Assembly: GCA_019747795.1 (NCBI GenBank)
Contig: JAIEQK010000113.1
Span: 1-40,180 of the forward strand
Source: Gammaproteobacteria bacterium
GTDB lineage: Bacteria; Pseudomonadota; Gammaproteobacteria; Ga0077536
DNA length: 40,180 nt
Direction of reading: 5' to 3'
Made by a program: the position numbers and the translations under genes. Under the pieces are notes generated by a model, which saw nothing but the letters and a program-made list of their open reading frames with translations, ran no database searches and was not told where the DNA came from. Below, piece by piece: positions 9,862 to 34,802 of the stretch (within the stretch, counting starts at the first letter, position 1; each line of letters starts with the position of its first letter).

Positions 9862-9894
9862 TTGGATATCTGGAAGAATTGGCAGGCCCGACAG

Positions 9895-12575: not shown

Positions 12576-12580
12576 GACAG

Positions 12581-12841
12581 TCAGGCGCTCGTGCCGCCGT
12601 CTTGCCGCCGCTTCTCTTCCACGAAACTGATGATCCTGTTGACCGAGTAGAAGTTGTCGATGTTCAAATCCTGGCTGCTGATCTTGATACGGAACTCCTG
12701 CTCCAGGTAATCAAGAAGCTGCACCGCAAATAGTGAGTCGACAAATCCTTTGCGGAAGATGTTGTCGTCGTCGCTGAACTCGACGTCAGAGTCGAATACG
12801 TTCAGGTTGTTTTCGATCACGCTGCGAATCTTCGCTCTCAC
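12581..12841 (-). CDS. Stand-alone acyl carrier protein for the extender unit
   Basis: An 86-residue acyl carrier protein. The phosphopantetheine site is Ser36 in GFVDSLFAV, which fits ACPs that carry glycerate-derived PKS extenders (FkbJ/ZmaD type). Downstream helix residues (LLDYLEQEFRIKI) complete the four-helix pattern. I chose GTG 12841 rather than the TTG four codons upstream. GTG overlaps the TGA of fkbH as GTGA and has GGAGG five bases upstream, a classic coupled start. The protein would receive the glyceryl unit from FkbH and hand hydroxymalonyl to the AT domain of the divergent megasynthase (inference). It needs a phosphopantetheinyl transferase, which is not in the window. Confidence 0.88.
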   Translation of the reverse strand: MRAKIRSVIENNLNVFDSDVEFSDDDNIFRKGFVDSLFAVQLLDYLEQEFRIKISSQDLNIDNFYSVNRIISFVEEKRRQDGGTSA

Positions 12842-13887
12842 CCTCTCCTCCAATCCACGTTAGAAACGGTTTTCAAGTAGTCCGGCATGGGGGGGGTATG
12901 CGTAAGGTCGTTCTCGAGCAGAACCGTCCCGTCGTTGCCGTGCTCTTTCTCGGTAAACCCTGCAACCATGTAAGCCGCGCGCATCATGCGGTTGCGGCCG
13001 GTATCGCGAAAGTCGGCCAGCAGGCGCACACCTTTTTCCCTGGCGGCGTGTCTCAGGTAGGTGAGCAGGACCGTACCGACCCCGGTGGAAAGCACACGGC
13101 ACGAAAACAGCAGGAGCTTGAGCTTCCAGGACTCGGGCGACAGCTCGAGCAAGGCGAGCCCGATTTTGCCGTAGCTCCCATATTTGTCCGTGAGCTCGCA
13201 GATGAGGATCTTGTGACGCCCGTCTTGTCGAAGCGCATCGAGCGATTCGACGGTGTACTTCTCCCCCGTGGCGTTCAATTGATTGGTCCGATACGTGAGC
13301 TCTTCCGCCCGCACGAGGTCCGATTCCTCCGCCTCGGTTATCTCGAAGACGATGTCGAGCTGGCGCAGGAAACTCTCTTTAGGACCGACGAACTCCTTGC
13401 GCTCCTTGTCCCGGGCGATGTCGTCCAGATACATGCGGCGACGCAAGGCCGAGTCGCGACTGACGTACTTGGGTTGGAGACGAGGGTGGTCGAGGAGGTC
13501 TAGATAATGGCGGCTATCGAGACACCAGACCTCGCTGTGGGTGCTGGCCACCTCGTCGCGCTCGAAGGGTTGATCGTCGACAAAGAGAAGGGTGTCGTAG
13601 CCGATATTGATGTTCTGCTTGATCCTGTCAACAGCAATCGACTTTGCGTCCCAGCCAATCTCGGGATAGAGGAAATACTCCGCGATGCCGAATTCCCGTA
13701 GCTTGGCCATGGCGTGGTCGTAATCGTTACGACTAGCGATCGAGTGCAGGATCCCACGGCGGTCGAGCGCTTCCAGTATCTCCGGTATGCGCGGCTTCAG
13801 ACGGACGGTGACGTCCTCCAGGAGAACACCGTCCCAGATCGTGTTGTCCAGGTCCCATACCACGCACTTGATGCCAGGATCCGACAC
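12838..13887 (-). CDS. fkbH: FkbH-family HAD/acyltransferase (glyceryl-ACP formation)
   Basis: FkbH-family enzymes take 1,3-bisphosphoglycerate, dephosphorylate it and load the glyceryl group onto an ACP, the first step to methoxy-, hydroxy- or aminomalonyl-ACP. The 349-residue protein has the HAD nucleophile motif WDLDNTIWDG (Asp12/Asp14) and the SRND and LLFVDDQPFERDEV HAD blocks in its first 130 residues. A C-terminal GNAT-like half contains LTYRTNQLNATGEKYT, DKYGSYGKIG and FRDTGRNRMM. The length is that of the family. GTG 13887 has GAGG upstream, and the gene lies 27 bp after the FkbK-like gene. Its last bases overlap the ACP start. Confidence 0.93.
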   Translation of the reverse strand: MSDPGIKCVVWDLDNTIWDGVLLEDVTVRLKPRIPEILEALDRRGILHSIASRNDYDHAMAKLREFGIAEYFLYPEIGWDAKSIAVDRIKQNINIGYDTLLFVDDQPFERDEVASTHSEVWCLDSRHYLDLLDHPRLQPKYVSRDSALRRRMYLDDIARDKERKEFVGPKESFLRQLDIVFEITEAEESDLVRAEELTYRTNQLNATGEKYTVESLDALRQDGRHKILICELTDKYGSYGKIGLALLELSPESWKLKLLLFSCRVLSTGVGTVLLTYLRHAAREKGVRLLADFRDTGRNRMMRAAYMVAGFTEKEHGNDGTVLLENDLTHTPPMPDYLKTVSNVDWRRG

Positions 13888-13914
13888 TGCTGCCCGCCTC
13901 GAACTTAGCCTTCT

Positions 13915-14772
13915 CTACCGGGTGTACGTGAAGAAACCCTTGCCGCTTTTCCTGCCCAGGTAGCCTGCGTCGACCATCCGCTGCAGAAGAGGGCAGGGGC
14001 GATACTTGGAGTCCTTGTATTCTTCGAAGAGCACCTTGATCGAGTTCAACACCGTGTCGAGACCGATCAGATCGGCCGTCGCCAACGGACCCATGCTGTG
14101 CCCGAAGGCGAGTCTGAATACTTTATCCACGGTGGCTGGGTCGGCCACGTCGTCCTGCACCACGAAAGCGCACTCGTTCACGGCGAGCATCATGACGCGA
14201 TTGGAGACGAATCCGGGGAAGTCGTTCACCAGGACATGCTGTTTCCCGAGCCGTTTGACCAGCGCGGTCGCGTTCTCGATGGTTTCTTCGGACGTGTGTT
14301 CGGCGCGGATCATCTCGACGAACTTCTTCACCGGCACCGGATTCATGAAATGCATGCCGATCATCTTGGAAGGATCGGGAATGCGGCTGGCGAGCTTGGT
14401 GATGGAAATGCAGGAGGTATTGACGCCGTAGACGGTAGCCTCCCTGCAGATACCCGCGAGACGATCGTACAGCCTGGCCTTGGCGTCGTAATCCTCGGTG
14501 ATGTTCTCGATGACGAAATCGGCCTCTGCCAACGCAGCCGGATCGGGTGCGAAGCGTATCTTGCCCAGGATCTCCTCGTCGTCGATTTCCCGGTATTCAG
14601 GGACGAGCATGCGGTAGGACCGCATGTCGGACCGCATGGTCTGCTTGGCCTGTTCCAGTCCTTGCTCGGTGAGGTCGTTGAGGATCACCTGATAGCCGTG
14701 CACCGCGAGATCCACGGCCAGGCCGCTGCCGATGGTGCCGGCCCCGACGACGGCGACGGTGTTGACGTTCAT
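13915..14772 (-). CDS. 3-hydroxyacyl dehydrogenase of extender-unit synthesis (FkbK/ZmaG-like)
   Basis: A 285-residue NAD-dependent 3-hydroxyacyl-CoA dehydrogenase-type enzyme. It shows the Rossmann glycine motif GAGTIGSG (10-17), the family block IGMHFMNPVPVKKFVE with the catalytic-region His, the DFPGFVSNRV block, and the C-terminal GRKSGKGFFTY end. In the zwittermicin and FK520 pathways the homologue oxidises the 3-hydroxyl of glyceryl-ACP before the dehydrogenase step. It is the promoter-proximal gene of the four-gene operon. ATG 14772 has AAGG about ten bases upstream. No O-methyltransferase accompanies the set, so hydroxymalonyl is favoured over methoxymalonyl. A fatty-acid role is the alternative. 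Confidence 0.87.
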   Translation of the reverse strand: MNVNTVAVVGAGTIGSGLAVDLAVHGYQVILNDLTEQGLEQAKQTMRSDMRSYRMLVPEYREIDDEEILGKIRFAPDPAALAEADFVIENITEDYDAKARLYDRLAGICREATVYGVNTSCISITKLASRIPDPSKMIGMHFMNPVPVKKFVEMIRAEHTSEETIENATALVKRLGKQHVLVNDFPGFVSNRVMMLAVNECAFVVQDDVADPATVDKVFRLAFGHSMGPLATADLIGLDTVLNSIKVLFEEYKDSKYRPCPLLQRMVDAGYLGRKSGKGFFTYTR

Positions 14773-15266: not shown

Positions 15267-18200
15267 ATGCGTACCGGCACCCGCGGTGAGAAATCCGCCC
15301 ACGACAGCCGTGATCTTCAGGAAGACAGACAGCCCGTCGAGTGGACGAGCTTCACGGAGGTGCCGCAGTGGCGCGCCCGGCATCAGGGCGACCTCCCGGC
15401 CTTCGTTTATCTGGCGGACGGCGAGCGGGAAACCCACCGACTGACCTTCGCGGAGTTGGATCGCCAGGCTCGGTGGGTAGCGGCCTGGCTGCAAGAGCAG
15501 GCGCTGATCGGCCAACGGGTCCTGCTGCTCTATCCGCCCGGGCTGGATTTCGTCATCGGCTTCCTGGGCTGCCTCTACGCGGGCAGCGTGGCGGTCCCTG
15601 CCTATCCGCCGCATCCCCGGCGCGTCGATCCCCGCTTGGTGTCGATCATCGAAGATTGCCGGCCCAGCGCCGCGTTGTGCGTCCAGTCTGACCATGAGCA
15701 TCTCGCCGGGTGCCTGGCGGATCGGCATCTGAAGATTCTTGCCACTGATTCGGTGCCGGAACCTGTCGAGCCATGGACCGGGCAGGCCGTCGACCTCGAC
15801 GCGATCGCCTACCTGCAGTACACGTCCGGCTCGACCGGTGAGCCCAAGGGCGTGATGGTCAGTCACCGCAACCTGCTGCACCAGGCTCAGTACCTTCTCG
15901 GCATCTGTCAGTACGACACCTCCAGTGTACATGTCAGCTGGCAGCCCTTCTTCCATGACATGGGGCTGGTGGGCAGCCTCGTGGAACCGATTTTCAGCGG
16001 CGCGATGGCCGTCATCATGTCGCCGGCCGCCTTCCTGCGGAATCCGATTCGCTGGCTCGAAGCCATCAGCAAGTACCGCGGCACGGGCGTGACGGCGCCC
16101 AATTTCGCCTATGACTTGTGCGTCAAGGGCACCACGCCGGCGCAACGCGAAGGCCTCGACCTGAGCTCGTGGGCAGGTGCCTGGAATGGTGCCGAGCCGA
16201 TCCTGGCCGACGTGCTCGATCGTTTCAGCGAGGTTTTCGAGCCGTACGGATTTCGGCCCACCACGCATTTGCCGTCCTATGGCATGGCGGAGACGACGCT
16301 CTGCGTGACCGCGAGCCGTCTCGATCGCCTGCCTGTCATCGTCCACTTCAAGGGCTCCGCTCTCGAGCAGAACCGTGTGGAGCCCTGCGCCGCCGACGAG
16401 GTGTCGGCGGTCAGGCTGGTGGGTTCCGGCATCGCAGGGGGCGGCCTCGAAGTCGCCATCGTGGATCCGGCGACCTTGCGGCGCAGCCCGGAAGGAAGCA
16501 TCGGCGAGATCTGGGTGTCGGGTCCAAGCGTCGCCGAGGGATACTGGCAACGCCCGGAACTGACCGACGCGACCTTCAACGCGCACATCGCCGAGTCGAA
16601 CGAGGGGCCGTACCTGCGCACCGGCGACCTGGGTTTCCTGCACGAGGGCGAGTTGTTCGTCACCGGTCGCCTCAAGGACATGATCATCATCCGCGGCCGG
16701 AATCTGTACCCGCAGGATCTGGAACTGGTCGCGCAGCGCAGCCATAAGGCACTGCAGGCCAATGCCTGTGCCGCCTTCTCCGTGGAGGTCGACGGCAAAG
16801 AGGAGCTGGCCGTGGCCCTGGAGGTCACGCGCTCCGGGCGCCATCACCTGGATGCGGATGAGGTGTTCGAGGTGGTTCGTCGTGCCATCGGCGAGCATTC
16901 CGGTGTCGCCTTGCATTGGATAGGGCTGGTGCAGCCCAACGGCATACCAAGGACTTCGAGCGGCAAGGTCATGCGCAGGGCATGCCGTCAACGGCATCTG
17001 TCCGGCGAGCTGTCCTTGCTGGCCGAATGGCGCGCTGACGCGCGTGACGAGCCCCAGGCCACGGCCGCTCAGGTCGACGGCGGGATGTTGGAACGTCTTC
17101 ATTCCTTGCTCCCGTCGGCTCGCCACCCGGTCCTCGTGCGTCATCTGCAGCAGGAGATTGCCCTCGCGCTGGAGCTTCGCGCGTTGCCGGACCCCCACAT
17201 GGGCTTCGAACGACTGGGCATCGATTCCATGGGTGCGGTCGAGCTGGTCAACCGTCTGCACGAACAACTCGAGGGCGCCGTGGAGTTGCCCACGACGCTG
17301 CTGTTCGACGAGCCGAATATCGATGCCGTGGCTCGCTTCGTCGAGCAGGCTCTTTTCGGAGTCCCGGACGAGGCGGCAGTCCCGGACCGCGCCGAGCGGA
17401 CACTGGACGAGCCGATAGCCGTGGTGGGACTGGCTTGCCGTTTCCCTGCCGCGCGGGATGCCGAGGCGTTCTGGCGAGTACTGGACGAGGGCATCGACGC
17501 GGTCCGGGAAGTCCCGGCAGACCGCTGGGACATCTCGCAGTACTTCGACGCAGATCCGAGCGCCGTGGGCAAGATGAGCACGCGCTTCGGCGGGTTTGTC
17601 GATGGGATCGACGGCTTCGACGCGGCGTTCTTCGACATCTCGCCGCGTGAAGCCGTCAGCATGGATCCGCAGCACCGGCAGTTGCTCGAGGTGTCCTGGC
17701 AGGCGCTCGAGGACGCCGGGATCGCGCCTGCGACCCTGGACGGCCGACCGGTCGGCGTGTTCGTCGGCATCTCGACCGGCGACTACCAGCACATGCTCGC
17801 CGACCAGGGTCCGCAGTTCACGGACGCTTTCATGGCCACTGGCACCGCGCCCAGCGCCGCGGTCGGTCGCTTGTCTTTCCTGCTGGGTCTGCAAGGGCCT
17901 TGTATCTCCGTGGATACGGCCTGCAGTTCATCACTGGTGGCGGTGCACCTGGCCGTGCAGAGCCTGCGCGCGGGTGAATGCGAGGCGGCGCTCGCCGGCG
18001 GTGTCAACGCCGTGCTGCGTCCCGACATCACCGTCGCGTTTTCCAAGGCGGGCATCCTGGCGCCAGACGGTCGCTGCAGGCCGTTCGATGACGCGGCCGA
18101 CGGATACGTGCGCGGGGAAGGCTGTGGTGTGGTCGTGCTCAAGCGTCTGCGCGACGCCGAGCGCGACGGCGACAATGTCCTGGCGGTGATTCGCGGCAGC

Positions 18201-21200
18201 GCGGTCAACCAGGATGGACGCAGCAGTGGCCTGACCGCCCCCAACGGCCCCTCGCAGACGCGGGTGATCGCCAGCGCGCTCGCGGTGGGCGGCGTGTCAC
18301 CGGCGGATGTGCAGTATCTGGAGTGCCACGGAACCGGTACTGTCCTCGGCGACCCGATCGAAGTCCAGGCCGCCAACGCGATCCTCGCCAAGGGTCGTAC
18401 ACCAGAGAGCCCGTGCGTGATCGGGTCGGTCAAGTCCAATCTCGGGCACCTGGAAGCCGCCGCCGGCATCGCCGGTCTGATCAAGGTCGTGCTCGCGTTG
18501 CAACACGGCACGATCCCACGCACCCTGCACTTCCACACGCCCAATGCGCGCATCCCGTGGCACGCCCTGGCGGTGAAGGTCGCCGCAGAACCCGTCCCAT
18601 GGCCGGCCGGTGCGCGGAAACGCCTCGCGGGTGTGAGTTCGTTCGGCTTCGCCGGGACCAACGCGCACGTCGTCCTCGAAGAGGCGCCGCGCGAGCAGTC
18701 CGAGCAAGGAGGTGCGGCGCCGGAGCAGACCGCGGAAACGCGCCTGCTTGCGCTCTCGGCGCGGAGCGAGAAAGCGCTCGCGGATCTTGCCGGCCGTTAC
18801 GCGGCGTGGCTGGAAGCACATCCCGAGTCTCGGCTGGGGGATGTCTGCCATACCGCCAACGTCGGGCGCAATCATTTCGAGTATCGCGCTGCGCTGCTGT
18901 GCAATTCGATTGACAGTGCGCGCGAGCAACTCGCGGGCTTCGTGCGTGGTGAGGCCAAGCCGACCACGATGCGTGGCGGCGTGCCACGGGAGACGCGTCC
19001 GCAGGTGGTGTTCCTGTTCCCTGGACAGGGACTGCAATACGCCGGCATGGCACGCGATCTCTACGACAAGGCGCCGGCATTTCGCGAGTGCCTCGACCGC
19101 TGCGCCGCGGTCTACGACGAGTTCGGCCGTGAGGATGGCTCACCGTCGCTGATCGAGGTGATGTTCGACCCCAACGGCGCGGACCGCCTTCGGCAGACCC
19201 GTTTCGTGCAACCGGCGCTCTATGCACTGCAGGTGTCGCTGGCGGCCCTGTGGCGCAGCTGGGGCGTCGTGCCGGACACGGTGCTCGGGCACAGCGCGGG
19301 TGAATACGCCGCAGCATGTGTGGCGGGCGCATTCGATGTGGAGGCCGGCCTCAAGCTGATCCTCGAGCGCGCGCGCCTGATGCAGACCCTGCCAGCGGGC
19401 GGGACGATGCTGTCGGTCACGGCATCCGCTGCGACCGTCGAGGCGATGCTCGCGGATGACCCCGCAACCTCGGTCTCGGCATACAACGGTCTGAACACGG
19501 TCATCAGCGGGCCGGTGGGGCGGCTTGATGCGCTGATGCAGCGGTGCGACGAGCAGGGGCTCTACTGCCAGAAGCTGCCGGCATCGAACGCGTTTCACAG
19601 CCACGACGTCGACCCTATTCTCGACCGGTTCGAGGCCTTTGCTCGCGGTATCGAGTACCGCGCGCTGACGGGGCAGCTCATCAGCACGATGACCGGTGCG
19701 CCCGTCGCCACCGGTGAGGTGCTGGACGCGACTTACTGGCGCAACCAGGCGCGCCGGCCGGTTCGCTTCACGCAAGCGGTGCAGTCGCTGTTCGAGACCG
19801 TGGGTTGTGACGTTGCGCTGGAGCTCGGACCGCAGGCGGAGCTCATCTGGTTGGCGCAGATGTGTTGGCGGCCCGAGCACAAGGTGCTGTGGACGAGTTC
19901 GCTGGCGAAGAACAGGAATGCGCGTGACCAGATGCTGTCCGCGGCGGGACAGCTCTATGTGAACGGGATGGCCCTGGATTTCGCCGCCATGGAGGGTGAA
20001 TCGTCCGGTCGCCACACCAGGCTGGCCCTTCCCACCTATCCCTTCCAGCACCAAAGGTATTGGCCAGACGGGGGCTTCACGGCCCGGCGCGGGTCGAACC
20101 TGCGCCACTTGTTGTTCGATTTGGAATGGCAGGTGTCGACACCACGGCGCGAGGATGCGTCGCGATTCGAGCAGCGCACCTGGCTGATCCTGGGCGCCGC
20201 GAACGGCATCGCCGGCGAGTTGGTCGGGCGCCTGGAGGCGATGGGAAGCCGTGTGCTCCTGGCGGAACTGCCCGCGGATCGCGCTGCCATCCCGGCATGC
20301 CTGGCGGCATGCCTGCAGGAGGCCGCGGGCGACCACACCCGTCCTCTGCAGGGGGTCGTCCATCTGTGGAGCCTGGACGACGATACGTCGCCGGATAGCC
20401 TGGAAGCGCTGAAAGCGGCCCAGGAGCGCGGCGTGCTCAGCGCCCTTGCCCTGGCCCAGCGCCTGATGCGCGATCAGCTCCGGGCAGAACTGTGGTTGGT
20501 GACCCAGGGTGTACACAGGGTCATCGAAAGCGATCAGGTCAATGCGACCCATGCGCCACTGTGGGGACTGGGGAAGTCCCTCGCGCTGGGCCTCGGCCAC
20601 CCGGAAATATTGCGCGGCATGCTGGATCTGCCCCGCGGCACCGATGCTGCCACCCTGGTCGAGCAGCTCTGCCAGACGCTGAAAGCCGACGATCACGAGG
20701 ACCATATCGCCTTGCGGCAGGGCCAGCGATGGGTGGCACGGCTGCAGCCCGCCGCGGAACGGGTTCCTGCGAAGACGATGAGCCTCGATACGGCTGGTGC
20801 ATACCTGATCACAGGCGGATTGGGCGCGATTGGTTTGCACGTGGCCGAGCGGCTGGCCAAGCGCGGAGTGCGGCACCTGGTATTGACTGGCCGCAGTGTT
20901 CCGAGTGCAGCCGCGATGCAAACCATAGGCGCGCTCGAGGAGCAGGGGTGCGTGGTGAGGACGTTGCAGGTAGACGTCACTCAGGCGCAGGACGTCGCGC
21001 GTCTCTTTGACGAAATTGCCGATTCCGGCCTGCCGCGCCTGGTGGGACTGATCCATGCGGCTGGCGCCACGGATGCAGTAGGCATCGACGAACTCTCCAG
21101 TGACCGGTTCAGCGCAATCCTGGCGCCGAAGGTCTGGGGCGCATGGTTGCTCGACCGGGAGGTCCGCGCGCGCAACCTCGATCTGTCGATGTTCGTCTGC

Positions 21201-24200
21201 ATGTCCTCGATGGCCGCGCTGTGGGGCGCGCCCGGTCAGGCGCACTACGCCGCGGCGAACATCTACCTCGATGCCTTGATGTCTGCCCGGCATGCCGAAG
21301 GGCTGGCGGGGCTCAGCGTGAACTATGGTCCATGGCAGGGCCCGGGCGTGGCAGCCAACCAGGAAGCCAGGGAATTCCACCAGCGTATCGGTTTGCGCGA
21401 AATCGATCCCGCGGTGGCCCTCGATGCCTTGGAAGCAATCATCTGCTCGGGCGTCAGCCAGATGGCGGTCGCCGACGTCGACTGGAACACATTCATTCCG
21501 GTGGCCGAGGCGCAGCGGCCTCGACCGCTGCTGGAAGGCTGGGCCGGGGCGCCGGTGCACGCCGCTCCCGCAGCACGCGACGAGTCGTCGATCGCTCTTG
21601 CGCGTCTGCGTTCTGCGCCCGAAGCCGAGCGCGTCGGGCTGCTCGCGACCACCATCAGGAGCGCGGTGGCGCAGATTCTCAAGATCGACCTCCACGAACT
21701 CGAGGAGGACGTGTCGTGGTTCACGCTCGGCATGAATTCGCTCATGGCCGTGGAAGTCACCAACCACCTGAGACGTTTCCTCGGCCAGGGTGCGGTGACC
21801 GCCCAACTTGTGTTCGAGCACCCCACCGTTGACCAACTGGCAACGGTGCTGGCCCATTCGCTGGACGTCGATGGCGCCGGCGTGCCGGCTGCAACGGACG
21901 CCGCAGCGCCGGACCGCGGGGCCGAGGCGAGCGAGCGCCTCGAGTTTCCGGCGACGGTGGGTCAGACCGGCATGTGGTTCCTGCAGCAGGTCGCGCCGAC
22001 GTCCCGCCATTTCAATCTCCCGGTCGCGGTACGGTTCTCGCGGGTAATCCGCCCGGAACTTCTCGAGCGAGCGCTGCGCGAACTCATGCTCCGGCACGAT
22101 GCGCTGCGCACGACGTTCGAGATCAGGGACGGCCAGCTCCTGCAGATCGTCCAGAAACACCTGATGCCGATGTTGCGCGTGGTCGACCTCAGTGAGCATG
22201 CAAGCCCCGAGGCCGGTCTGCGCAAGCTCCAGGAAGCGGAGGCGCAGAAGCTGTTCGATCTGACGCACGGGTCGCTCGTGCGTTTCACGCTCGTCAACCT
22301 CGCGGCGCAAGACCAGGTGCTCATGATCAGCATGCACCACGGGATCTCCGACGGTGCCTCTCTGCGCGTGCTGCTGGACGAGTTTCTCGCGCTGCACGAG
22401 TCGCTGGAGAAGGGCGAGAAACTCTCGCTCCCGGCCCCGGAAGCCCAGTTCGGAGCCTACGCCGCCTTTGAGCGTCGCAAGCTCGACGCGCGCACGGTGC
22501 AAGACGACGTCGCTTACTGGCGGAAAGAGCTGGACGGCATTCCGCCGCTGGATCTGCCCTCCGATCGCGTGCGACCGGCCGTGCTTACCCAGAATGGCGA
22601 TGCGGTGCTCTTCGAGCTCTCCGCCGAACTCAGCGCCAGGGTGCACGAGTGCAGCCGGAGCGCCGGGGTGACGCCGTTCGTGACCCTGCTGGCGACCTGG
22701 AGCCTGCTGCTCAACCGCTACTCCGGTCAGAGTGATTTCGGTATCGGTGCATCCGTTGCTGGCCGCGATGGACCGCAATGGGGCAGGGTCATCGGGTTCT
22801 TCCTCAACATGCTGACCTTGCGCGTGCGGCTGGACCAGGATTGGACCGTGCGCGAGCTCCTGGCGCATGTGGCCGCGGTGACCAAGGGTGCGTACGCGCA
22901 CCAGTCACTGCCGATAGAGTGGCTGATTGAGCAGCTCAATCCTCCGCGGGAGCCGAGTCGCACACCGCTGTTCCAGTCGGCCCTCACCCTGCAGGTTCCT
23001 ACCCATGAATTCGAGGCGCGCATGGATGCTGCGGGCATGCGGATTATCGACCTGCGGCCCGCCCGACTTGCGTCGCAGTTCGACACTACCTTGTTCCTGG
23101 AAGAGACGAGCCAGGGCTTCAAGGGCTTCCTCGAGTACAACACCGATCTGTTCGATCGCTGGCGCGCCGAGCAGATGATCGCTCACTTCAAGACGCTGCT
23201 GTCGGCACTGACCAGCCAGCCGGACAGCGCGATCGCTGCACTGCCGCTGTTGTCTCCTGAAGAAGAGCAATTCCTGCTCAGCGAGTGGAACCAGTCGGCG
23301 CAACAGTTTCCGATGGATCGCTGCGTGCACGAGCTGATTGTCGAACGGGCACGGCGTGATCCACGCAGGGTCGCGGTGGTCTGCAAAGAGCAGCGCCTGA
23401 CCTACCGGGAATTGAACGAGAGATCCAACCAGCTGGCGCACCATCTGCGCAGCCACGGCGTCGGGCCCGGGACATTGGTCGGCCTTTGCCTCGATCGCTC
23501 TCCGGCCATGGTGATTGGTGTACTTGGCGTGATCAAGGCCGGTGGCGCGTACGTGCCGCTGGATCCGAGCTTCCCCAAGCAGCGCCTGCAGTTGATGCTC
23601 GATGACGCGAAGGTGGCGGTGCTCGTGACCCAGAGTGCCTCGCTGGATTGGCTTCCCGAACTGGAGGCCGTGGTGGTCTGCGTCGACCGTGACGCCGAGC
23701 GCATCGCCCAGGAATCCAACCGCGACCTCCCGCCAGTCGCCCAACTCGCAGATCCTTACTGCGTCCTCTATACATCCGGATCGACGGGCAGGCCCAAGGG
23801 CGTGGTGGTGACGCACCGCAGCCTGCTGAACTTCCTCCTGTCGATGGGCGAGAAGACGGAATTCACTTCCGCGGACGTCATCGTGGCGGTGACGACGCTG
23901 AGCTTCGACATCTCCAAGCTCGAGCTCCTGCTGCCCCTGCTGCACGGCGCGCGTACCGTGATCGCCACGCTGGAGGAGACGCGGGACGGACAGCGCCTGC
24001 AACAGGTGCTCCGCGAGAGCAATGCCACCATCATGCAGGCGACGCCCTCGACCTGGCGCATGCTCCTGGCCTCGGGTTGGACCAACCCGGAGCGGATCCG
24101 CGTGCTGTGCGGCGGTGAGGCAATGAACCAGGACCTGGCCAAGAGCCTGCTCGACGTCACTCCTTGCCTGTGGAACGTCTACGGCCCCACGGAGACGACC

Positions 24201-26249
24201 ATCTGGTCCACGATCCACAGGGTTCGACATGCTGATCGCCCGACGGCGCCAATCGGCTATCCCATCGCCAACACGCAGATCTACATCCTCGACGAGCGAC
24301 TGCGGCCGGTACCGATAGGGGTTCCGGGAGAGTTGTACATCGGCGGGGACGGGCTCGCGTGGGGCTACCTGAATCAGCCAGAGCTGACGGCAGAGCGCTT
24401 CATTCCTGACCCCTTCACGCAGCGGGTCGGCGCCCGCATGTATCGAACGGGCGACCTTTGCCAGCGCCTTCCGGACGGCAACATCGAGTACCTCGGCCGG
24501 GGCGACCAGCAGGTCAAGGTGCGGGGTTTCCGCATCGAGATCGGCGACATCGAAGCGGCCATGGCCGCATGCCCGGGCGTTCGCCAGGCCGCCGTGAGGA
24601 CCTGGAAAGGTCGCGACGGACTGGATTTCCTTGCCGGGTACGTGGTCCCCGACCAGGATCACCCGCCCGCGATTGCGGACATCAAGGCCGCGCTGCGCGA
24701 GAAACTGCCAGACTACATGGTTCCCGGCATGTTCATGCTCCTGGACGAGTTCCCGCTCACGCCGAACAAGAAGGTCGACCGTCGCGCCCTGCCATCACCC
24801 GAGCAAGTGCGCGAGCTGACCCAGAATGAATTCGTCGCGCCGACGACCGAGGCGCAGAAGACGCTGGCCGAGGTGTGGAGGGAAGTCCTCGACGTGGAAC
24901 GCGTGGGTATCCACGACAACTTCTTCGAACTCGGCGGGCACTCCCTGCTCATCGTCAGCATCCTGACCCGGCTGAAACAGCAGTTCGACGTCGAGATATC
25001 GATCGGCGACCTCTACCAGAACCCGACGGTCGAAGCACTGGCCGCGCACCTCGAACTTGGCAGAGGCGCCCGGGGGCAGAGCACGGCGGTCGATACGGCG
25101 GCGGCCGATACCGCGGCGTCGCCCGTCGAGGTTCATCACCAGGTGGGTGACGGCCCCACGTACACCTACCGGCAATATCGCGCGGGCGACAAGGGGCCGG
25201 CGATGGCAGCGCTCCGCGAGACCTACGGAGATGGATTCGCGCGGAATGCCGAAAGGACGTTCGACTGGAAGTACCTGGAGAATCCATTGACGCCGGCCAG
25301 TGGCCCGAAGCTGGACATTCTCGAATGCGACGACAAGATCGTAGGCATGAACGGCCGGATCCCCGTCCTGTTCAAGATCGGTACAGACGAGCTGCCGGGC
25401 GTCTGGAACGCCGATACACATGTCGTGCCGGATCACCGCAGCGTCTCGGTCTGGTTCGCCTACCAGGCCAACAAGATCGCTCCGAAGGTTTCACTCGGCA
25501 TGCCGAGCCCGAACAACTACGCGATCCTTTCAGCCGCCAATGCGGTCATCGATGTTGGTCGATTCACGGATCTCAAGGCTTGCCTTGACCTGGGGCCGAT
25601 ACTCAAGGCGAAGGGTATCAACGCAGTGCTGTCCTCGGTCTGCGGCGGAGTCTTTTCCGTGGTTCCCAAGCTCTTCAGTGTCTATGCGAAGCTCCGCGCC
25701 AAGAGCGACATCGTGGTCGAGGAGGTTGATCGATTCGACAGCCGGCTCGATGACCTGTGGCAGTCGGTTGCCCGTGACTATGAAGGAACCATGGTACGGA
25801 ACAAGAGATTCCTCGCCTGGCGATTCGATCGCTGTCCAAACCGGGACTACACGCGCTTTGTCGCAGAGAGGGATGGCGAGATCGTCGGTTACATGGTGAC
25901 CCGGCATTTCCGTTGGGGCGGGTTCGGACGTGGCCGCATCGTCGATTATCTCGTGCGTCCAGGCGACACCGCCGCCTTGAACAGCCTGCTCGAGAGAGCG
26001 ACCCGGGACTTCGCGTCACGTGGGATTGTCTCGATCATCTGCTCGGTCTACACGACCAACCAAGAACAACTACAGGAGTTTCGCCGGCACGGATTCCTGT
26101 ACAGTCGACCAGGCTCGCAGATCTGCATCGACCGCAGTTCCCTGGCGGACACCCTGGCGGGCATCAAGCACTGGTTCTTTACCTATGCCGATGGAGACAT
26201 CGATTACTGCGATGACTACTCGCAACTCGAGGGGGGCGAGGGCGGCTAG
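15267..26249 (+). CDS. Hybrid assembly line FAAL-ACP-KS-AT-KR-ACP-C-A-PCP-GNAT (lipo-aminoacyl synthase)
   Basis: A 3660-residue PKS/NRPS megasynthase. Domains by residue: fatty acyl-AMP ligase (about 20-590; YTSGSTGEPKG near 183, FFHDMGLVGS, PNFAYDLC); ACP1 (Ser654 in LGIDSM); KS (about 715-1130; Cys886, His1021, His1061); AT (about 1248-1590; Ser1343 in GHSAGE, His1444 in NAFH); KR (about 1620-2070; GGLGAIG near 1850, Ser1981, Tyr1994); ACP2 (Ser2158 in LGMNSL, with Asn for the usual Asp); condensation domain (HHGISDG 2357-2363); adenylation domain (about 2690-3170); PCP (Ser3226 in LGGHSL); C-terminal GNAT-like domain (about 3295-3660). There is no DH, ER or thioesterase. The expected chemistry is: activate a fatty acid, extend once, reduce to beta-hydroxy, condense with one amino acid. 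The residues at adenylation code positions read D-I-L-Q-L-G-V-I-W, close to published glycine codes. ATG 15267 has only a weak GGAA upstream. The extender probably comes from the divergent FkbH operon. The product is inferred, not shown. Confidence 0.93.
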   Translation: MRTGTRGEKSAHDSRDLQEDRQPVEWTSFTEVPQWRARHQGDLPAFVYLADGERETHRLTFAELDRQARWVAAWLQEQALIGQRVLLLYPPGLDFVIGFLGCLYAGSVAVPAYPPHPRRVDPRLVSIIEDCRPSAALCVQSDHEHLAGCLADRHLKILATDSVPEPVEPWTGQAVDLDAIAYLQYTSGSTGEPKGVMVSHRNLLHQAQYLLGICQYDTSSVHVSWQPFFHDMGLVGSLVEPIFSGAMAVIMSPAAFLRNPIRWLEAISKYRGTGVTAPNFAYDLCVKGTTPAQREGLDLSSWAGAWNGAEPILADVLDRFSEVFEPYGFRPTTHLPSYGMAETTLCVTASRLDRLPVIVHFKGSALEQNRVEPCAADEVSAVRLVGSGIAGGGLEVAIVDPATLRRSPEGSIGEIWVSGPSVAEGYWQRPELTDATFNAHIAESNEGPYLRTGDLGFLHEGELFVTGRLKDMIIIRGRNLYPQDLELVAQRSHKALQANACAAFSVEVDGKEELAVALEVTRSGRHHLDADEVFEVVRRAIGEHSGVALHWIGLVQPNGIPRTSSGKVMRRACRQRHLSGELSLLAEWRADARDEPQATAAQVDGGMLERLHSLLPSARHPVLVRHLQQEIALALELRALPDPHMGFERLGIDSMGAVELVNRLHEQLEGAVELPTTLLFDEPNIDAVARFVEQALFGVPDEAAVPDRAERTLDEPIAVVGLACRFPAARDAEAFWRVLDEGIDAVREVPADRWDISQYFDADPSAVGKMSTRFGGFVDGIDGFDAAFFDISPREAVSMDPQHRQLLEVSWQALEDAGIAPATLDGRPVGVFVGISTGDYQHMLADQGPQFTDAFMATGTAPSAAVGRLSFLLGLQGPCISVDTACSSSLVAVHLAVQSLRAGECEAALAGGVNAVLRPDITVAFSKAGILAPDGRCRPFDDAADGYVRGEGCGVVVLKRLRDAERDGDNVLAVIRGSAVNQDGRSSGLTAPNGPSQTRVIASALAVGGVSPADVQYLECHGTGTVLGDPIEVQAANAILAKGRTPESPCVIGSVKSNLGHLEAAAGIAGLIKVVLALQHGTIPRTLHFHTPNARIPWHALAVKVAAEPVPWPAGARKRLAGVSSFGFAGTNAHVVLEEAPREQSEQGGAAPEQTAETRLLALSARSEKALADLAGRYAAWLEAHPESRLGDVCHTANVGRNHFEYRAALLCNSIDSAREQLAGFVRGEAKPTTMRGGVPRETRPQVVFLFPGQGLQYAGMARDLYDKAPAFRECLDRCAAVYDEFGREDGSPSLIEVMFDPNGADRLRQTRFVQPALYALQVSLAALWRSWGVVPDTVLGHSAGEYAAACVAGAFDVEAGLKLILERARLMQTLPAGGTMLSVTASAATVEAMLADDPATSVSAYNGLNTVISGPVGRLDALMQRCDEQGLYCQKLPASNAFHSHDVDPILDRFEAFARGIEYRALTGQLISTMTGAPVATGEVLDATYWRNQARRPVRFTQAVQSLFETVGCDVALELGPQAELIWLAQMCWRPEHKVLWTSSLAKNRNARDQMLSAAGQLYVNGMALDFAAMEGESSGRHTRLALPTYPFQHQRYWPDGGFTARRGSNLRHLLFDLEWQVSTPRREDASRFEQRTWLILGAANGIAGELVGRLEAMGSRVLLAELPADRAAIPACLAACLQEAAGDHTRPLQGVVHLWSLDDDTSPDSLEALKAAQERGVLSALALAQRLMRDQLRAELWLVTQGVHRVIESDQVNATHAPLWGLGKSLALGLGHPEILRGMLDLPRGTDAATLVEQLCQTLKADDHEDHIALRQGQRWVARLQPAAERVPAKTMSLDTAGAYLITGGLGAIGLHVAERLAKRGVRHLVLTGRSVPSAAAMQTIGALEEQGCVVRTLQVDVTQAQDVARLFDEIADSGLPRLVGLIHAAGATDAVGIDELSSDRFSAILAPKVWGAWLLDREVRARNLDLSMFVCMSSMAALWGAPGQAHYAAANIYLDALMSARHAEGLAGLSVNYGPWQGPGVAANQEAREFHQRIGLREIDPAVALDALEAIICSGVSQMAVADVDWNTFIPVAEAQRPRPLLEGWAGAPVHAAPAARDESSIALARLRSAPEAERVGLLATTIRSAVAQILKIDLHELEEDVSWFTLGMNSLMAVEVTNHLRRFLGQGAVTAQLVFEHPTVDQLATVLAHSLDVDGAGVPAATDAAAPDRGAEASERLEFPATVGQTGMWFLQQVAPTSRHFNLPVAVRFSRVIRPELLERALRELMLRHDALRTTFEIRDGQLLQIVQKHLMPMLRVVDLSEHASPEAGLRKLQEAEAQKLFDLTHGSLVRFTLVNLAAQDQVLMISMHHGISDGASLRVLLDEFLALHESLEKGEKLSLPAPEAQFGAYAAFERRKLDARTVQDDVAYWRKELDGIPPLDLPSDRVRPAVLTQNGDAVLFELSAELSARVHECSRSAGVTPFVTLLATWSLLLNRYSGQSDFGIGASVAGRDGPQWGRVIGFFLNMLTLRVRLDQDWTVRELLAHVAAVTKGAYAHQSLPIEWLIEQLNPPREPSRTPLFQSALTLQVPTHEFEARMDAAGMRIIDLRPARLASQFDTTLFLEETSQGFKGFLEYNTDLFDRWRAEQMIAHFKTLLSALTSQPDSAIAALPLLSPEEEQFLLSEWNQSAQQFPMDRCVHELIVERARRDPRRVAVVCKEQRLTYRELNERSNQLAHHLRSHGVGPGTLVGLCLDRSPAMVIGVLGVIKAGGAYVPLDPSFPKQRLQLMLDDAKVAVLVTQSASLDWLPELEAVVVCVDRDAERIAQESNRDLPPVAQLADPYCVLYTSGSTGRPKGVVVTHRSLLNFLLSMGEKTEFTSADVIVAVTTLSFDISKLELLLPLLHGARTVIATLEETRDGQRLQQVLRESNATIMQATPSTWRMLLASGWTNPERIRVLCGGEAMNQDLAKSLLDVTPCLWNVYGPTETTIWSTIHRVRHADRPTAPIGYPIANTQIYILDERLRPVPIGVPGELYIGGDGLAWGYLNQPELTAERFIPDPFTQRVGARMYRTGDLCQRLPDGNIEYLGRGDQQVKVRGFRIEIGDIEAAMAACPGVRQAAVRTWKGRDGLDFLAGYVVPDQDHPPAIADIKAALREKLPDYMVPGMFMLLDEFPLTPNKKVDRRALPSPEQVRELTQNEFVAPTTEAQKTLAEVWREVLDVERVGIHDNFFELGGHSLLIVSILTRLKQQFDVEISIGDLYQNPTVEALAAHLELGRGARGQSTAVDTAAADTAASPVEVHHQVGDGPTYTYRQYRAGDKGPAMAALRETYGDGFARNAERTFDWKYLENPLTPASGPKLDILECDDKIVGMNGRIPVLFKIGTDELPGVWNADTHVVPDHRSVSVWFAYQANKIAPKVSLGMPSPNNYAILSAANAVIDVGRFTDLKACLDLGPILKAKGINAVLSSVCGGVFSVVPKLFSVYAKLRAKSDIVVEEVDRFDSRLDDLWQSVARDYEGTMVRNKRFLAWRFDRCPNRDYTRFVAERDGEIVGYMVTRHFRWGGFGRGRIVDYLVRPGDTAALNSLLERATRDFASRGIVSIICSVYTTNQEQLQEFRRHGFLYSRPGSQICIDRSSLADTLAGIKHWFFTYADGDIDYCDDYSQLEGGEGG

Positions 26250-26269: not shown

Positions 26270-27115
26270 CTACGGGGCCGTCTCCGCGTCCTGCGGCCGA
26301 TAGCCCCGCACATCGGAAAGCTGCTTGATCTCGGGAAAGAATCTGTCCATGAGATCTTTGCACCTGGCCTGCACACAGGTCTGAAGATAGTCCGGGTCAA
26401 GCTCACGCAGCAGGCCGAGTTTTGCCTCCGCCTTGTACTCGTGCGACCGGCCCGGGTCCAGCGTATCCGCCGGCACGCCCATGAACTGCGCCATCCGCGG
26501 AATATCCTGCCGGATATCCTGGGTACGAACGATCAAGAGGCGCTCGCTCGGCACCATGTCGATGACGCGGGTGTTGTGTTCACTCCAGAAACGCAGAAAG
26601 CCATCGAGGGGAAACAGCCCGCGCTCAGCCAGAACCCGGTCGCCTGCCTGATGATCGCCCGTCCAGAGTCGGTCGGCGTACCACTGGTGAAACCGCTGCT
26701 GAAACTCCTGCTGATTGCGGGCGAGCAGATGATTGAAGACGGAATCCAACCAGGAGTAACAGTCGCGAATGGTGAGTACGAACTTGGCTTGCGGAAACTC
26801 ATCGAGCAACAAGTCCAGCAAGGCGTAATTCAGCCAGGACGAGTTGAGCTCCAGCCACTTGCAGCGGTCCAGGCGGCGGAGATGAGCGCGGGTATCGGGT
26901 TCCGATACGGAACCATCCGCGCGTGCCACGATGATGCGCATGAAGCGCTCGAGTTCGGGTTCGTGCCACGTGCGGTAATGCCCGGTGAACACCGCTTCCA
27001 GAGAGTGCGTACCCGACTTCGGCGTTCCTACACCGAAGGCGTGAAAGCGTCTGGGCTTTAAATACGGAAACGTCCAGTAACGGATGAAGTCCTTGATCTG
27101 ATCCATCGTATTCAT
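26270..27115 (-). CDS. PAPS-dependent sulfotransferase family protein
   Basis: A cytoplasmic enzyme of about 281 residues, predicted to move sulfate from PAPS to a hydroxyl or amine. It has the 5'-phosphosulfate loop GTPKSGTHS (about 30-38) and the 3'-phosphate motif FVLTIRDCYSWLDS with the conserved Arg and Ser (about 117 and 121). The C-terminus has RLLIVRTQDI and the basic DLMDRFFPEI region. ATG 27115 is used. A GTG at 27151 is also in frame, and neither has a clear ribosome site. The gene converges with the megasynthase 20 bp away, so the lipid made there, or the EPS, is a plausible acceptor (inference). A standard Stf0- or Sulfotransfer_1/3-type family member is equally possible. Confidence 0.82.
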   Translation of the reverse strand: MNTMDQIKDFIRYWTFPYLKPRRFHAFGVGTPKSGTHSLEAVFTGHYRTWHEPELERFMRIIVARADGSVSEPDTRAHLRRLDRCKWLELNSSWLNYALLDLLLDEFPQAKFVLTIRDCYSWLDSVFNHLLARNQQEFQQRFHQWYADRLWTGDHQAGDRVLAERGLFPLDGFLRFWSEHNTRVIDMVPSERLLIVRTQDIRQDIPRMAQFMGVPADTLDPGRSHEYKAEAKLGLLRELDPDYLQTCVQARCKDLMDRFFPEIKQLSDVRGYRPQDAETAP

Positions 27116-27472
27116 GCGTGGCGGTGGGTCCCAGGTGTGGGCCGTATCCACGGAAAAAGCCGTGGTTTCGGCCGTCTATTGTCCTTTCTCAGTCTACCTG
27201 ATTAACCGGAGGACCGAGAAGCTGGAGACTGTCAACCATCGTGGATGGACGAACTGCATCGGGGACGGCAGGGAGCTCGAGCGCTGTGATGGATCCGGCC
27301 GGTGCAGCGACGGAACAAGCGCCGGGACGGATAGTGCGGCATGGGGCAGACCGGACGTGACGCGCATCACAATGCACCGTCGCGGGATTACCTAAGCGCG
27401 GCGCGGATGACATCGCGAGGGCTGCATCGTCAGCGCGTACTGATGCTCATCGCCCCGTACGCATGACCGCGT
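27116..27472. other. Gene-free gap upstream of the sulfotransferase gene
   Basis: About 357 bp lie between the FAAL-ACP-TE stop and the sulfotransferase start. A perfect 6-bp inverted repeat CCACGG/CCGTGG with an AAAAAG loop sits at 27148-27165, next to the possible GTG start. It could be an operator or a hairpin in the leader. No gene was recognised. Confidence 0.45.
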
Positions 27473-30397
27473 TCACCCGTCTTCCGCACGGTCGAGTGCG
27501 TCCAGCGCCGCCCGCAGTCGTGGGCCGAACACCTCGATATTCTCAGACGTGAACATCGTCAGATGCGTCAGCCGGGTGCCGTCACGACGCGCCGTGAATT
27601 TCTCAACCTGCGGCGGTACATCGCACAGCCGGGCCCATCTCTCTGCGCGATCATCTTCGGACACTTGAAAATAGAGCACGCGGCAAGAGGTTCGAGTGCG
27701 GCGCGCATAGCGTTGTACGAGGCGCATGTTGTTGGCACGGACCCGCGCCTGGTGCAGCAGGTTCAGGCCACTGCCTGGCATGAACATGCGCGATTCGCTC
27801 GAGCTGAATCGTTCGATGACCAGTGGAAGCGCCCAGTCGCAGAAATCCGCGACCGAGCGACGGCGAACCTCCTGCGGGATTGCTACGTCGGGCAGCAAGA
27901 ATCTGATGAGGGGCACCAAGTCACGCACCGTGTGACAATGGCGCGGGCGAAGGGCGACATTCAGTCGAACGGCGATGTCCCGGATATCAAACACCCTGTT
28001 GATGATCGGAATCCGCTTGCCAACCTTCGGATGGCGAGATGCCCAGTTCGCTAAGGCATAGGACAGGCGCTTGCGCGCGGCGGTGGCTCGGCTGGCGACA
28101 AGACCTGAATCGAACATCGCAACCGCCAGGACCTCGTCTCCCGATTCGATCAGCCTGGCGCCCATCTCGAAGGCCACCGCTCCGCCGAACGAGTAGCCAC
28201 CCAGCAGGTAGGGCCCGCTGACATTCAGGGCCTTCAATCCACGAATGTAGTGTTTCGCGGTCGCCTCGACGCTGTCGAAGAGCATTTCCCCGTCACTCAA
28301 GGCCGGCGATCCGATCAGGATGAGGGGACGATCCTGGATGTACTTGAGGAGCCTGAGATAAATCCAGCCATGCCCACTCGCCGGGTGGACGAGTACGAGC
28401 GGTGTTCTGGGCCGGCCTTTTCCGACTACGGTGATATACGAATCCCTGGCGATGCCCTCGAGAATCCGCTCTGACTGTTCGCGAACGCTCGCACACGCCA
28501 GAATCTGCTCCTGCGACACGCGCGAGTCGATCACCTCATTGATGGCGCCCGCCGCCCGGACCGCGGCGATGGAGTCCGCACCGAGGTCGACAAAGAGATC
28601 TTGATCTTCATGAACCTCGATTCCGAGGACCTCACTCCAAATGGCCAGCAGGCAGTCTCGGACGCTTTCGTAGTCGGCCGAGCCGGGCTTTACAGTGCGA
28701 TGGTCATCCGTCGGCGTATCGCGTCGGTGAAGAGAGCGTAGGCGCCCTTCGAGATACAGGCGGCGGTTCTCCGGGCGAGAAAGCTTGCCGGAAGTACTTT
28801 TGCGTAAGGTGCCTGGTCCGCAGATCGAAATGTCCGATGCCGATATTCCCATCCGCGCGTCGATAACCCGGCTTATCTCGTTGCGCAACTGTAGCGGGTC
28901 GATTCTGTCGTCCACCCGCTCCGCACAAATCACGATGCTCTCGGTACCAAGCGCATCGTTGTCCACGCCAAAGGCCACAACACGCCCGGGTTTGCAGCCC
29001 GCCACGCCCTGTACCACTTCTTCGACATCCGCAGGAAAGACGTTGGCGCCATTGATGATCATCAGGTCCTTGCTGCGGCCGCAAACGAACAACTCGCCCG
29101 CTACCAGGTACCCGAGATCTTCCGTGCGCAGCCAACCATCATCGGTCAGCGGAGAAGGCCATGTCGAACCAGGAACACTCAGGTACTCGCGTATCTGAAA
29201 GTCGCTCTTCACCTCGATCTCACCCACGACCCGGTCCACGCTCGTGCCGCGGATGCGAACGCTGACGCCTTCCAGGGGATACCCGCAAGACGCGACCACC
29301 ACGACGTCATCGCCCGAGCGCCCGGCAGTCACCTCGGCCCGGTTGTGCTGCCCGAACATACCGCGGTCCAGACGCTCGAATCGCACTTCCTCGCCAAGCC
29401 GGGTCTGGGACACGCCGCAGGTGTTCTCCGCCATGCCATAGGCCACCTGGAGTTGCGCGCGGCGCACGCCGTGGTCGGCGAACCTCTGCACGAACTCGTC
29501 GAAGGTGCGAAGGCGAGCCGGCTCTGCGCCAAAAAGAAAAGCCCGTACATGGGATAGGTCGACGCCGGTGATTTCTTCGTCTCGAATGCGCATCGCGCAG
29601 TAGGAGTAGGCGAAATTCGGCTGATAACAATAATCAACCGAGTAGTCTTGAATGACTCGAAACAGGAAGGCGGGGTTCTGCAGCCATTCAAACGGGTCGA
29701 GCAGAACCGGCACGGCACCAACCGAGAGGGCTGACAGAAAACAGCGAACCAAACCGCCGTCGTGATACAGGGGGGCCCACGAAACAATCTTGTCGTTCGG
29801 CTCCAGGGCAATGGACTTAGCGAAACTTTGACTGTGCTGTCTCAGCATCTCGTGGGAAATCGCGACGCCCTTTCGTGCTCCCATGGTCCCAGAGGAGAAC
29901 TGCAGGAACATCGGCCCGTCTGCCGACGTTGCCAGGTCCGCCGGAGTGAACCCGCCAGTCAGCCGGCTGTCGGGGAGCGCTACGCATACGCACTCGCTTC
30001 CAATGGAGTGCAGGGCCTCCTTGGCTCGGTCGAAGAAGTCGGTGGCGCATAGAAGCCATCGTGCGCCACTCGACTGGATGACCGAGCAGAACATGCTGAA
30101 GAATGCGCTCTGGTTCTGCTTGGGTGACGGGTAGGAGAGCACGGTTGGTACGGCACCGGCACCCAGGGCGCCGAGGAGTCCCAACGACTGTTCGGCGGGC
30201 TTTCGCGCGAGAATCGCCACCACGTCGCCGGCATGAATCCCCGTCTCGCGCAGGAAGGCCGCGAGTCCGGCCACGCTGTCCCGCAGCGCGCTCCACGAGA
30301 ACTCGATGGTCGGTGAATGAGGCGAGGCACAGATCAAGGCGACGTGGTCGGGATGGCTCACCGCCCGGGCCTGCATTACCGCCATCAGACTGGACAT
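27473..30397 (-). CDS. FAAL-ACP-thioesterase tridomain protein
   Basis: A 974-residue lipid-loading and release protein. Residues about 10-560 are a fatty acyl-AMP ligase: A3-like loop FLQFSSGTMGARKG (164-177), WAPLYHDGGLVRCFLSAL, YQPNFAYSYC, GWLRTEDLGYL, and the A10 STSGKL lysine at 538. An ACP follows with Ser609 in DLGADSI. Residues about 665-974 form a type I thioesterase with the HPASG loop, Ser736 in GGYSFGG, Asp763 in MFDSG and a candidate His945 in THLTMF. It should activate a fatty acid with ATP, hold it on the ACP, and hydrolyse or transfer the acyl group. It has no KS or condensation domain, so it cannot extend the chain itself. ATG 30397 lacks a strong ribosome site. It lies in the same direction as the sulfotransferase and export genes but with gaps, so co-transcription is uncertain. 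Confidence 0.9.
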   Translation of the reverse strand: MSSLMAVMQARAVSHPDHVALICASPHSPTIEFSWSALRDSVAGLAAFLRETGIHAGDVVAILARKPAEQSLGLLGALGAGAVPTVLSYPSPKQNQSAFFSMFCSVIQSSGARWLLCATDFFDRAKEALHSIGSECVCVALPDSRLTGGFTPADLATSADGPMFLQFSSGTMGARKGVAISHEMLRQHSQSFAKSIALEPNDKIVSWAPLYHDGGLVRCFLSALSVGAVPVLLDPFEWLQNPAFLFRVIQDYSVDYCYQPNFAYSYCAMRIRDEEITGVDLSHVRAFLFGAEPARLRTFDEFVQRFADHGVRRAQLQVAYGMAENTCGVSQTRLGEEVRFERLDRGMFGQHNRAEVTAGRSGDDVVVVASCGYPLEGVSVRIRGTSVDRVVGEIEVKSDFQIREYLSVPGSTWPSPLTDDGWLRTEDLGYLVAGELFVCGRSKDLMIINGANVFPADVEEVVQGVAGCKPGRVVAFGVDNDALGTESIVICAERVDDRIDPLQLRNEISRVIDARMGISASDISICGPGTLRKSTSGKLSRPENRRLYLEGRLRSLHRRDTPTDDHRTVKPGSADYESVRDCLLAIWSEVLGIEVHEDQDLFVDLGADSIAAVRAAGAINEVIDSRVSQEQILACASVREQSERILEGIARDSYITVVGKGRPRTPLVLVHPASGHGWIYLRLLKYIQDRPLILIGSPALSDGEMLFDSVEATAKHYIRGLKALNVSGPYLLGGYSFGGAVAFEMGARLIESGDEVLAVAMFDSGLVASRATAARKRLSYALANWASRHPKVGKRIPIINRVFDIRDIAVRLNVALRPRHCHTVRDLVPLIRFLLPDVAIPQEVRRRSVADFCDWALPLVIERFSSSESRMFMPGSGLNLLHQARVRANNMRLVQRYARRTRTSCRVLYFQVSEDDRAERWARLCDVPPQVEKFTARRDGTRLTHLTMFTSENIEVFGPRLRAALDALDRAEDG

Positions 30398-33638: not shown

Positions 33639-33646
33639 GGCGTGTC

Positions 33647-34758: not shown

Positions 34759-34802
34759 GGCGCGCCCGGAAGGATTCGAACCTCCGACCCCCTAGTTCGT
34801 AG
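34758..34802 (-). tRNA. tRNA-Arg(ACG) 3' half only (attachment-site remnant)
   Basis: On the minus strand the sequence runs from an anticodon loop CTACGAA through the variable loop, a T-arm GGAGG-TTCGAAT-CCTTC, the acceptor 3' strand CGGGCGC and an encoded CCA. It matches the 3' half of bacterial tRNA-Arg with anticodon ACG. The 5' half is missing: the sequence upstream of the loop has no D-arm or matching acceptor strand and is instead the 191-bp repeat. The remnant is therefore not a working tRNA. It looks like the end of an island that integrated at the anticodon loop and carried off or rebuilt the intact gene at its other end. Confidence 0.8.

Follow-up and report, generated by a model that had tools for sequence, protein, structure and literature searches.

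The analysed stretch of DNA (the window) is an entire contig of 40,180 bp from an assembly of 331 contigs, so the locus that it carries may run past both ends. At its start, a 12-bp tandem repeat (9.4 copies, positions 1-119; CAAGCGCTCAAC) may explain the break in the assembly. The window contains a probable Wzx/Wzy-dependent set of exopolysaccharide (EPS) genes disposed around a large megasynthase gene. On one side lie an initiating undecaprenyl-phosphate glycosyl-1-phosphate transferase (2607-4250, minus strand; TIGR03025, 418.6 bits against a cut-off of 295.55), a Wzy/O-antigen ligase-like membrane protein with a Wzy_C match (5150-6634, plus), a GT4 glycosyltransferase (6752-8017, plus), a second, weakly GT4-like glycosyltransferase (8387-9436, plus) and a Wzx-like flippase (9862-11340, plus). 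On the other side lies a Wza/ExoF-like polysaccharide export protein (30722-32104, minus) with Poly_export and SLBB domains and a coiled-coil part. A preliminary description of this DNA had named the same flanking functions, and the profile matches bear them out. Within the window, which is a truncated contig, no match was found to an Azospirillum tyrosine-autokinase query for a Wzc-like co-polymerase. No deacetylase was found in the window, and Pfam scans of it returned no aminotransferase. Polysaccharide deacetylases are present elsewhere in the source genome, which also has a second EPS region (G000:C305; L037) with its own initiating transferase, a Poly_export gene and a pair of polysaccharide deacetylases. 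A PEP-CTERM protein is encoded at the edge of the locus (1056-1748, minus) and suggests an exosortase in the genome.

The megasynthase gene (15267-26249, plus strand) is a single unbroken open reading frame of 3660 residues, with the domain order FAAL-ACP-KS-AT-KR-ACP-C-A-PCP-GNAT in one frame. The FAAL spans residues ~36-590, the first ACP ~600-700, the KS 715-1095, the AT 1245-1560, the KR 1640-2060 and the second ACP 2110-2205; the C domain (2227-2671), A domain (2693-3169) and PCP (3199-3262) follow and, after a linker rich in Ala, Asp and Thr, the GNAT domain occupies residues ~3290-3660. Pfam matches, all well over cut-off, comprise two AMP-binding and three PP-binding domains, the N- and C-terminal ketoacyl-synt domains, acyl_transf_1, KR, condensation and AMP-binding_C, and FAAL models give good scores for the N-terminal AMP-binding domain. 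All of the catalytic motifs checked are intact: DTACSSSL, HGTGT and NLGH in the KS; GHSAG in the AT; GGLGAIG and YAAAN in the KR; GIDS and GMNS in the two ACPs; GGHS in the PCP; and HHGISDG in the C domain. The gene therefore has, in one frame, each part of a FAAL-initiated PKS-NRPS line (FAAL, ACP, KS-AT-KR-ACP and C-A-PCP), and reading frame, Pfam domains and motifs agree with the architecture first proposed for it.

A four-gene cassette that the preliminary description had missed (11430-14772, minus strand) separates the Wzx gene from the megasynthase. It consists of a 3-hydroxyacyl-CoA dehydrogenase (3HCDH; 13915-14772, FkbK/ZmaG-like position), an FkbH glyceryl-ACP synthase (12838-13887; TIGR01686, 252.4 bits against a cut-off of 146.65), a discrete acyl carrier protein of 90 residues (12581-12853, FkbJ/ZmaD-like position), which phmmer matched with ACPs of Azospirillum, and an acyl-CoA dehydrogenase (11430-12575, FkbI/ZmaE-like position). 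All four genes of an Fkb/Zma-type hydroxymalonyl-ACP supply are thus together with no O-methyltransferase, and the scans of window proteins turned up no methyltransferase. As in the zwittermicin and butyrolactol clusters, these genes lie beside a PKS, and in the case of butyrolactol the identical set, likewise without an O-methyltransferase, supplies hydroxymalonyl-ACP, with labelling evidence for the extender (PMC5355916). Unlike those cassettes, the one in the window sits beside EPS genes and would feed at most one module. Away from the window, the source genome contains a second FkbH-type gene in a 644-residue frame (G000:C251:8681-9673; L029, L036).

The AT of the megasynthase reads GHSAGE and NAFHS, whereas the ATs of three Krumholzibacteriota loci without an FkbH cassette, which served as the comparison set, have the malonyl-type motifs GHSVGE and HAFHS. 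Given the adjacent hydroxymalonyl-ACP cassette and this departure from the malonyl type, the PKS module probably yields a 2,3-dihydroxyacyl unit, and the AT may select hydroxymalonyl as its extender. The specificity code of the A domain, ten positions read by hand from a motif alignment, is DILQLGVIWK. In the nocamycin NRPS, DILQLGVI marks a glycine pocket in agreement with the product (PMC5466765), and DILQLGMIWK has been reported as a glycine code (PMC12283262); glycine is the predicted substrate here. We infer that the last thioester on the megasynthase would be N-(2,3-dihydroxyacyl)-glycyl-S-PCP. The product was earlier thought to be a 3-hydroxyacyl amino acid. The amino acid of that proposal is predicted to be glycine, and the cassette and the AT motifs suggest that its acyl chain is 2,3-dihydroxylated rather than 3-hydroxylated.

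The last ~380 residues of the megasynthase (25110-26246, plus strand) match PF00583 at 22.2 bits against a cut-off of 20.7, which places them in the GNAT superfamily, and we propose that this domain releases the chain onto an amine. GNATs are movers of acyl groups, usually onto an amine, and the usual domain at this place after the last carrier is a thioesterase or a reductase. This site, in place of a thioesterase, together with the company of discrete ACPs and FAALs that related GNATs keep elsewhere, makes a carrier-bound acyl chain the most likely donor. Searched against PDB sequences, the domain gave no match as a single sequence and only weak matches as a profile. An AlphaFold model built from four sequences had a poor pLDDT of 51.7, and its fold matches, to tandem GNATs and N-myristoyltransferase at Z scores of 12-13 and rmsd of 5-6 Å (7q3a: Z 12.9, rmsd 5.0, 255 aligned), are to be read as a hint only. 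This resemblance would fit the transfer of a long acyl chain and is a weak indication of it. The 50 fold matches listed for this low-confidence model included no FeeM/NAS or FemX structure. When 13 GNATs were scanned against Pfam at E 0.1, Acetyltransf families alone were returned, with no match to the NodA model, and at the same threshold the domain had no NCBIfam match, whether to N-acyl amino acid synthases, to exosortase acyltransferases or to any other model.

Two further genes missed by the preliminary description lie between the megasynthase and the exporter. One encodes a PAPS-type sulfotransferase (26270-27151; Sulfotransfer_4/3) with a PKSGT motif; the other encodes a second acyl-activating protein, a FAAL-PCP-thioesterase (FAAL-PCP-TE) of 974 residues (27473-30397) in which active-site motifs are present, including GYSFG in the TE. 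Both are on the minus strand, and the co-directional order Poly_export, FAAL-PCP-TE, sulfotransferase ties the lipid genes physically to the exporter. Among 369 genomes of the class, the FAAL-PCP-TE architecture was found at 1e-100 in the source genome only. An OlsE-like fatty-acid hydroxylase (33368-34519, plus) is a possible, unproven member of the locus.

A pattern-based scan with the GNAT domain across 84,980 species genomes returned three loci, all from MAGs of one phylum, Krumholzibacteriota. Each encodes a fusion of the form FAAL-ACP-(KS-AT-KR-ACP)x2-GNAT, with GNAT domains 39-42% identical to that of the window; two of the fusions are complete and the third, cut by a contig end, has the same 3' part. 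The hydroxymalonyl cassette is lacking at these loci. The contigs also carry Poly_export and MurJ/Wzx-like, Wzy, GT or GlyTf genes, in sets that differ, and each fusion is adjoined by three sulfotransferase-family genes; these neighbours match models of carbohydrate sulfotransferases (Gal-3-O and Sulfotransfer_2). The sulfotransferase of the window is of a different subfamily with no detectable homology to them, so this likeness of neighbourhoods could be convergent or accidental. Elsewhere in the same three genomes, a separate ACP, a FAAL and a second GNAT are followed by a sulfotransferase of the Gal-3-O/Sulfotransfer_2 type (L020, L021 and L022; L020 has a weakly matching ACP, and phmmer alone placed the sulfotransferase of L021). 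Judged by gene content, these compact runs would be the simplest form of the window machinery. In a small tree, the FAALs of the window and of the Krumholzibacteriota fusions are sisters (98/97) to the exclusion of the FAALs from the separate operons. The KS tree does not firmly group the window KS with those of Krumholzibacteriota, and the shared descent of the core thus rests on the FAAL and the GNAT. Fusions and mini-operons together indicate that a FAAL and a carrier protein accompany the GNAT, fused or separate. The GNAT also appears to accept differing upstream modules, two PKS modules in Krumholzibacteriota and a PKS module plus glycine in the window.

More distant GNAT homologues, 21-30% identical, occur in proteobacterial EPS loci, several of them with a ligase, an ACP and a polysaccharide deacetylase. 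On Azospirillum plasmids (L039, L043) the run is GlyTf-Wzy-GT2-GT4-GT4-polysaccharide deacetylase-ACP-ligase-AsnB-NadE-GNAT, with the GNAT last; the unannotated loci L040, L042 and L044 resemble it by phmmer, and three Pseudomonadota genomes (L056, L058, L059) have an AsnB-ligase-ACP-NadE-GNAT set with a deacetylase and glycosyltransferases. At L034, L035 and L055 the GNAT homologue adjoins GT4 genes, sometimes directly between two of them, in EPS loci without a ligase or an ACP. The other four loci of the phylum sample (L054, L057, L060, L061) lack a clear set of EPS genes. Members of the family are uncommon, being found at 1e-15 in 9 of 398 Pseudomonadota genomes with the source genome included, and about half of the eight phylum-sample homologues are in recognisable EPS loci. 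These distant GNATs may use acetyl or aminoacyl groups. The recurrent cassette of AsnB-like amidotransferase, A-domain-type ligase, ACP, NadE-like protein and GNAT is a probable EPS acylation or aminoacylation system, of which we found no description in the mostly open-access literature. Since Azospirillum is a cultured genus, its version makes the role of the GNAT testable.

The suggestion that the assembly line is linked to EPS genes is strengthened by these relatives, with a FAAL-PKS-GNAT core beside Wzy, Wzx or Poly_export genes in three Krumholzibacteriota MAGs and distant GNATs in EPS loci. Conservation of the synteny, which had been put forward as a check, extends to that core. The NRPS-containing form was seen in the source genome only: searches of 57 relatives, a 369-genome sample of the class and a 398-genome sample of the phylum gave no other PKS-NRPS-GNAT gene that includes C-A-PCP. 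The GNAT and the Wzx were absent from the same-genus and same-family genomes searched.

We propose that this EPS locus includes a dedicated assembly line for an acyl tail, in which the GNAT transfers a dihydroxyacyl-glycyl chain to a sugar amine of the EPS precursor, and we give this reading a probability of about 0.47. In the series of reactions that we infer from genes, domains, neighbours and family context, the FAAL would adenylate a free fatty acid and load it onto the first ACP. The KS-AT-KR module would then add one unit, most likely hydroxymalonyl from the adjacent cassette, to give a 2,3-dihydroxyacyl-S-ACP, and the C-A-PCP module would add glycine to this chain. The GNAT would release the acyl-glycyl group from the PCP onto an amine, most likely that of an amino sugar in the lipid-linked precursor of the EPS, ahead of Wzx/Wzy and the Wza-like exporter. 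Three features suggest a sugar amine as acceptor: the location among EPS genes, the deacetylases that adjoin GNATs in distant loci, and the sulfotransferases of carbohydrate type beside the Krumholzibacteriota GNATs. The sulfotransferase may sulfate the product, on either glycan or lipid, and the FAAL-PCP-TE may handle a second acyl group. Several results weigh against this reading: the window yielded neither a deacetylase nor an aminotransferase, its sulfotransferase has no detectable homology to those of Krumholzibacteriota, the distant GNATs are only 21-30% identical, the structure model of the GNAT is poor, and the congeners searched lack the locus.

There are partial precedents for such a scheme. 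Nod factors are made by deacetylation (NodB), acylation from an ACP (NodA) and sulfation (NodH) (PMC5080398), and this system, with NodE/NodF, would be analogous to our proposal in its dedicated carrier-bound acyl chain, N-acyl transfer to a deacetylated sugar, and sulfation. It differs in that NodA is of another family and NodC is absent from the window; here the chain builder and the acyltransferase are fused, and the proposed target is EPS. In the Caulobacter holdfast, the GNAT HfsK is genetically coupled to EPS synthesis and has been proposed to acylate EPS together with the deacetylase HfsH (PMC5362036), which is a genetic precedent for a GNAT plus a deacetylase in EPS, although HfsK is stand-alone and binds c-di-GMP. 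The front of the megasynthase, with its FAAL-ACP-KS-AT start, resembles FAAL-started PKS/NRPS lipopeptide synthetases, of which plasmid-encoded examples are up to about 48% identical. In the plasmid search the GNAT matched none of these records, and no EPS genes are annotated in the short stretches around them.

An alternative reading, which we consider less likely, is that the product is a free, secreted and possibly sulfated lipoglycine or aminolipid: the GNAT would cap the chain with a small amine, or the FAAL-PCP-TE would provide a second chain, giving a membrane or surfactant lipid merely co-located with EPS genes. N-acyl amino acid synthases (FeeM/NAS), GNAT-type enzymes that like the proposed window GNAT take acyl groups from ACP, do produce N-acyl amino acids in free form, and some of them show genetic linkage to PEP-CTERM/exosortase systems (PMC4897644); they differ from the window GNAT in being single proteins that act on free amino acids, and the window GNAT has no NCBIfam match. 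The OlsE-like hydroxylase, the sulfotransferase and the FAAL-PCP-TE would also fit a diacyl aminolipid, and no glycosyltransferase match was found in 20 kb around the Krumholzibacteriota ACP-FAAL-GNAT mini-operons. However, GNAT homologues recur in EPS loci, even between GT4 genes, and the Krumholzibacteriota fusions adjoin Wzy, Poly_export and carbohydrate-type sulfotransferases, both of which count against a free lipid.

It had been supposed that no described system pairs these two machineries in one locus. This was too strong, as the wcbR/rkpA genes of Burkholderia and rhizobia place a type I PKS/FAS inside capsular polysaccharide biosynthesis and export clusters, much as the megasynthase is placed here (PMC3908369). 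A PKS in a polysaccharide locus is thus known, and it is the FAAL-PKS-NRPS-GNAT form with a hydroxymalonyl cassette that we did not find described; no description of a combination of GNAT, NRPS/PKS, EPS genes and FAAL was found in the literature, mostly open-access. To our knowledge, RkpA and WcbR have no FAAL, NRPS module, terminal GNAT or FkbH cassette and have different partner genes. For RkpA-type PKSs it has been suggested that the product is a specialised lipid which carries or anchors the polysaccharide. A corresponding role in the window, in which a finished chain would receive the glycan, either by assembly on it or by attachment at its end, is in our view improbable. Both the PKS genes of capsule clusters and the presence of one assembly line and one exporter per locus would suit it, but the standard polyprenyl-phosphate initiating transferase in the window makes a separate carrier unnecessary, and we know of no GNAT among the rkp/wcb gene sets. 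There is a still slimmer chance that the GNAT merely N-acetylates EPS or a peptide from acetyl-CoA, with release spontaneous or by the TE of the FAAL-PCP-TE, for although a thioesterase is nearby in the window and GNAT homologues occur in EPS loci without a ligase or ACP (L034, L035, L055), the fusion of the GNAT right after the last carrier in four genomes and the three genomes with ACP-FAAL-GNAT trios favour an acyl donor bound to a carrier.

If the proposed acylation of an EPS precursor is correct, natural-product assembly lines would be seen to equip a structural polysaccharide with a custom lipid tail, which would join two fields usually studied apart. More tentatively, and with the odds somewhat against it, direct grafting of the finished acyl-glycine onto the EPS precursor by the fused GNAT may represent a new mode of chain release, and the locus may belong to a family of carrier-protein-fed EPS acylation systems, found in at least two phyla, whose simplest members are ACP-FAAL-GNAT trios and whose largest are multimodular fusions. 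The GNAT would then be added to the short list of chain-release domains, and a FAAL or other ligase, an ACP, this type of GNAT and EPS genes, often with a sulfotransferase or deacetylase, would form a searchable signature for amphiphilic EPS.

The base composition of the window is uneven. GC is 0.65-0.67 across the megasynthase except for its GNAT part (0.60), 0.59-0.61 in the flanks and 0.59 in the EPS part. The higher GC had raised the suspicion that the PKS alone was inserted horizontally; this was ruled out, since two other contigs of the source genome are at 0.68-0.69, and it is the EPS flanks that are atypical. With the EPS part of the contig below these two contigs, we allow for recent acquisition or, less likely, mis-binning. 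No tRNAs or Rfam families were found in the window. Towards its end, a low-GC stretch encodes three proteins without a known family (36220-38091, 38342-39100 and 39113-39823) and contains a 191-bp direct repeat, whose copies (34799-34989 and 39912-40102) are 94% identical and 5.1 kb apart.
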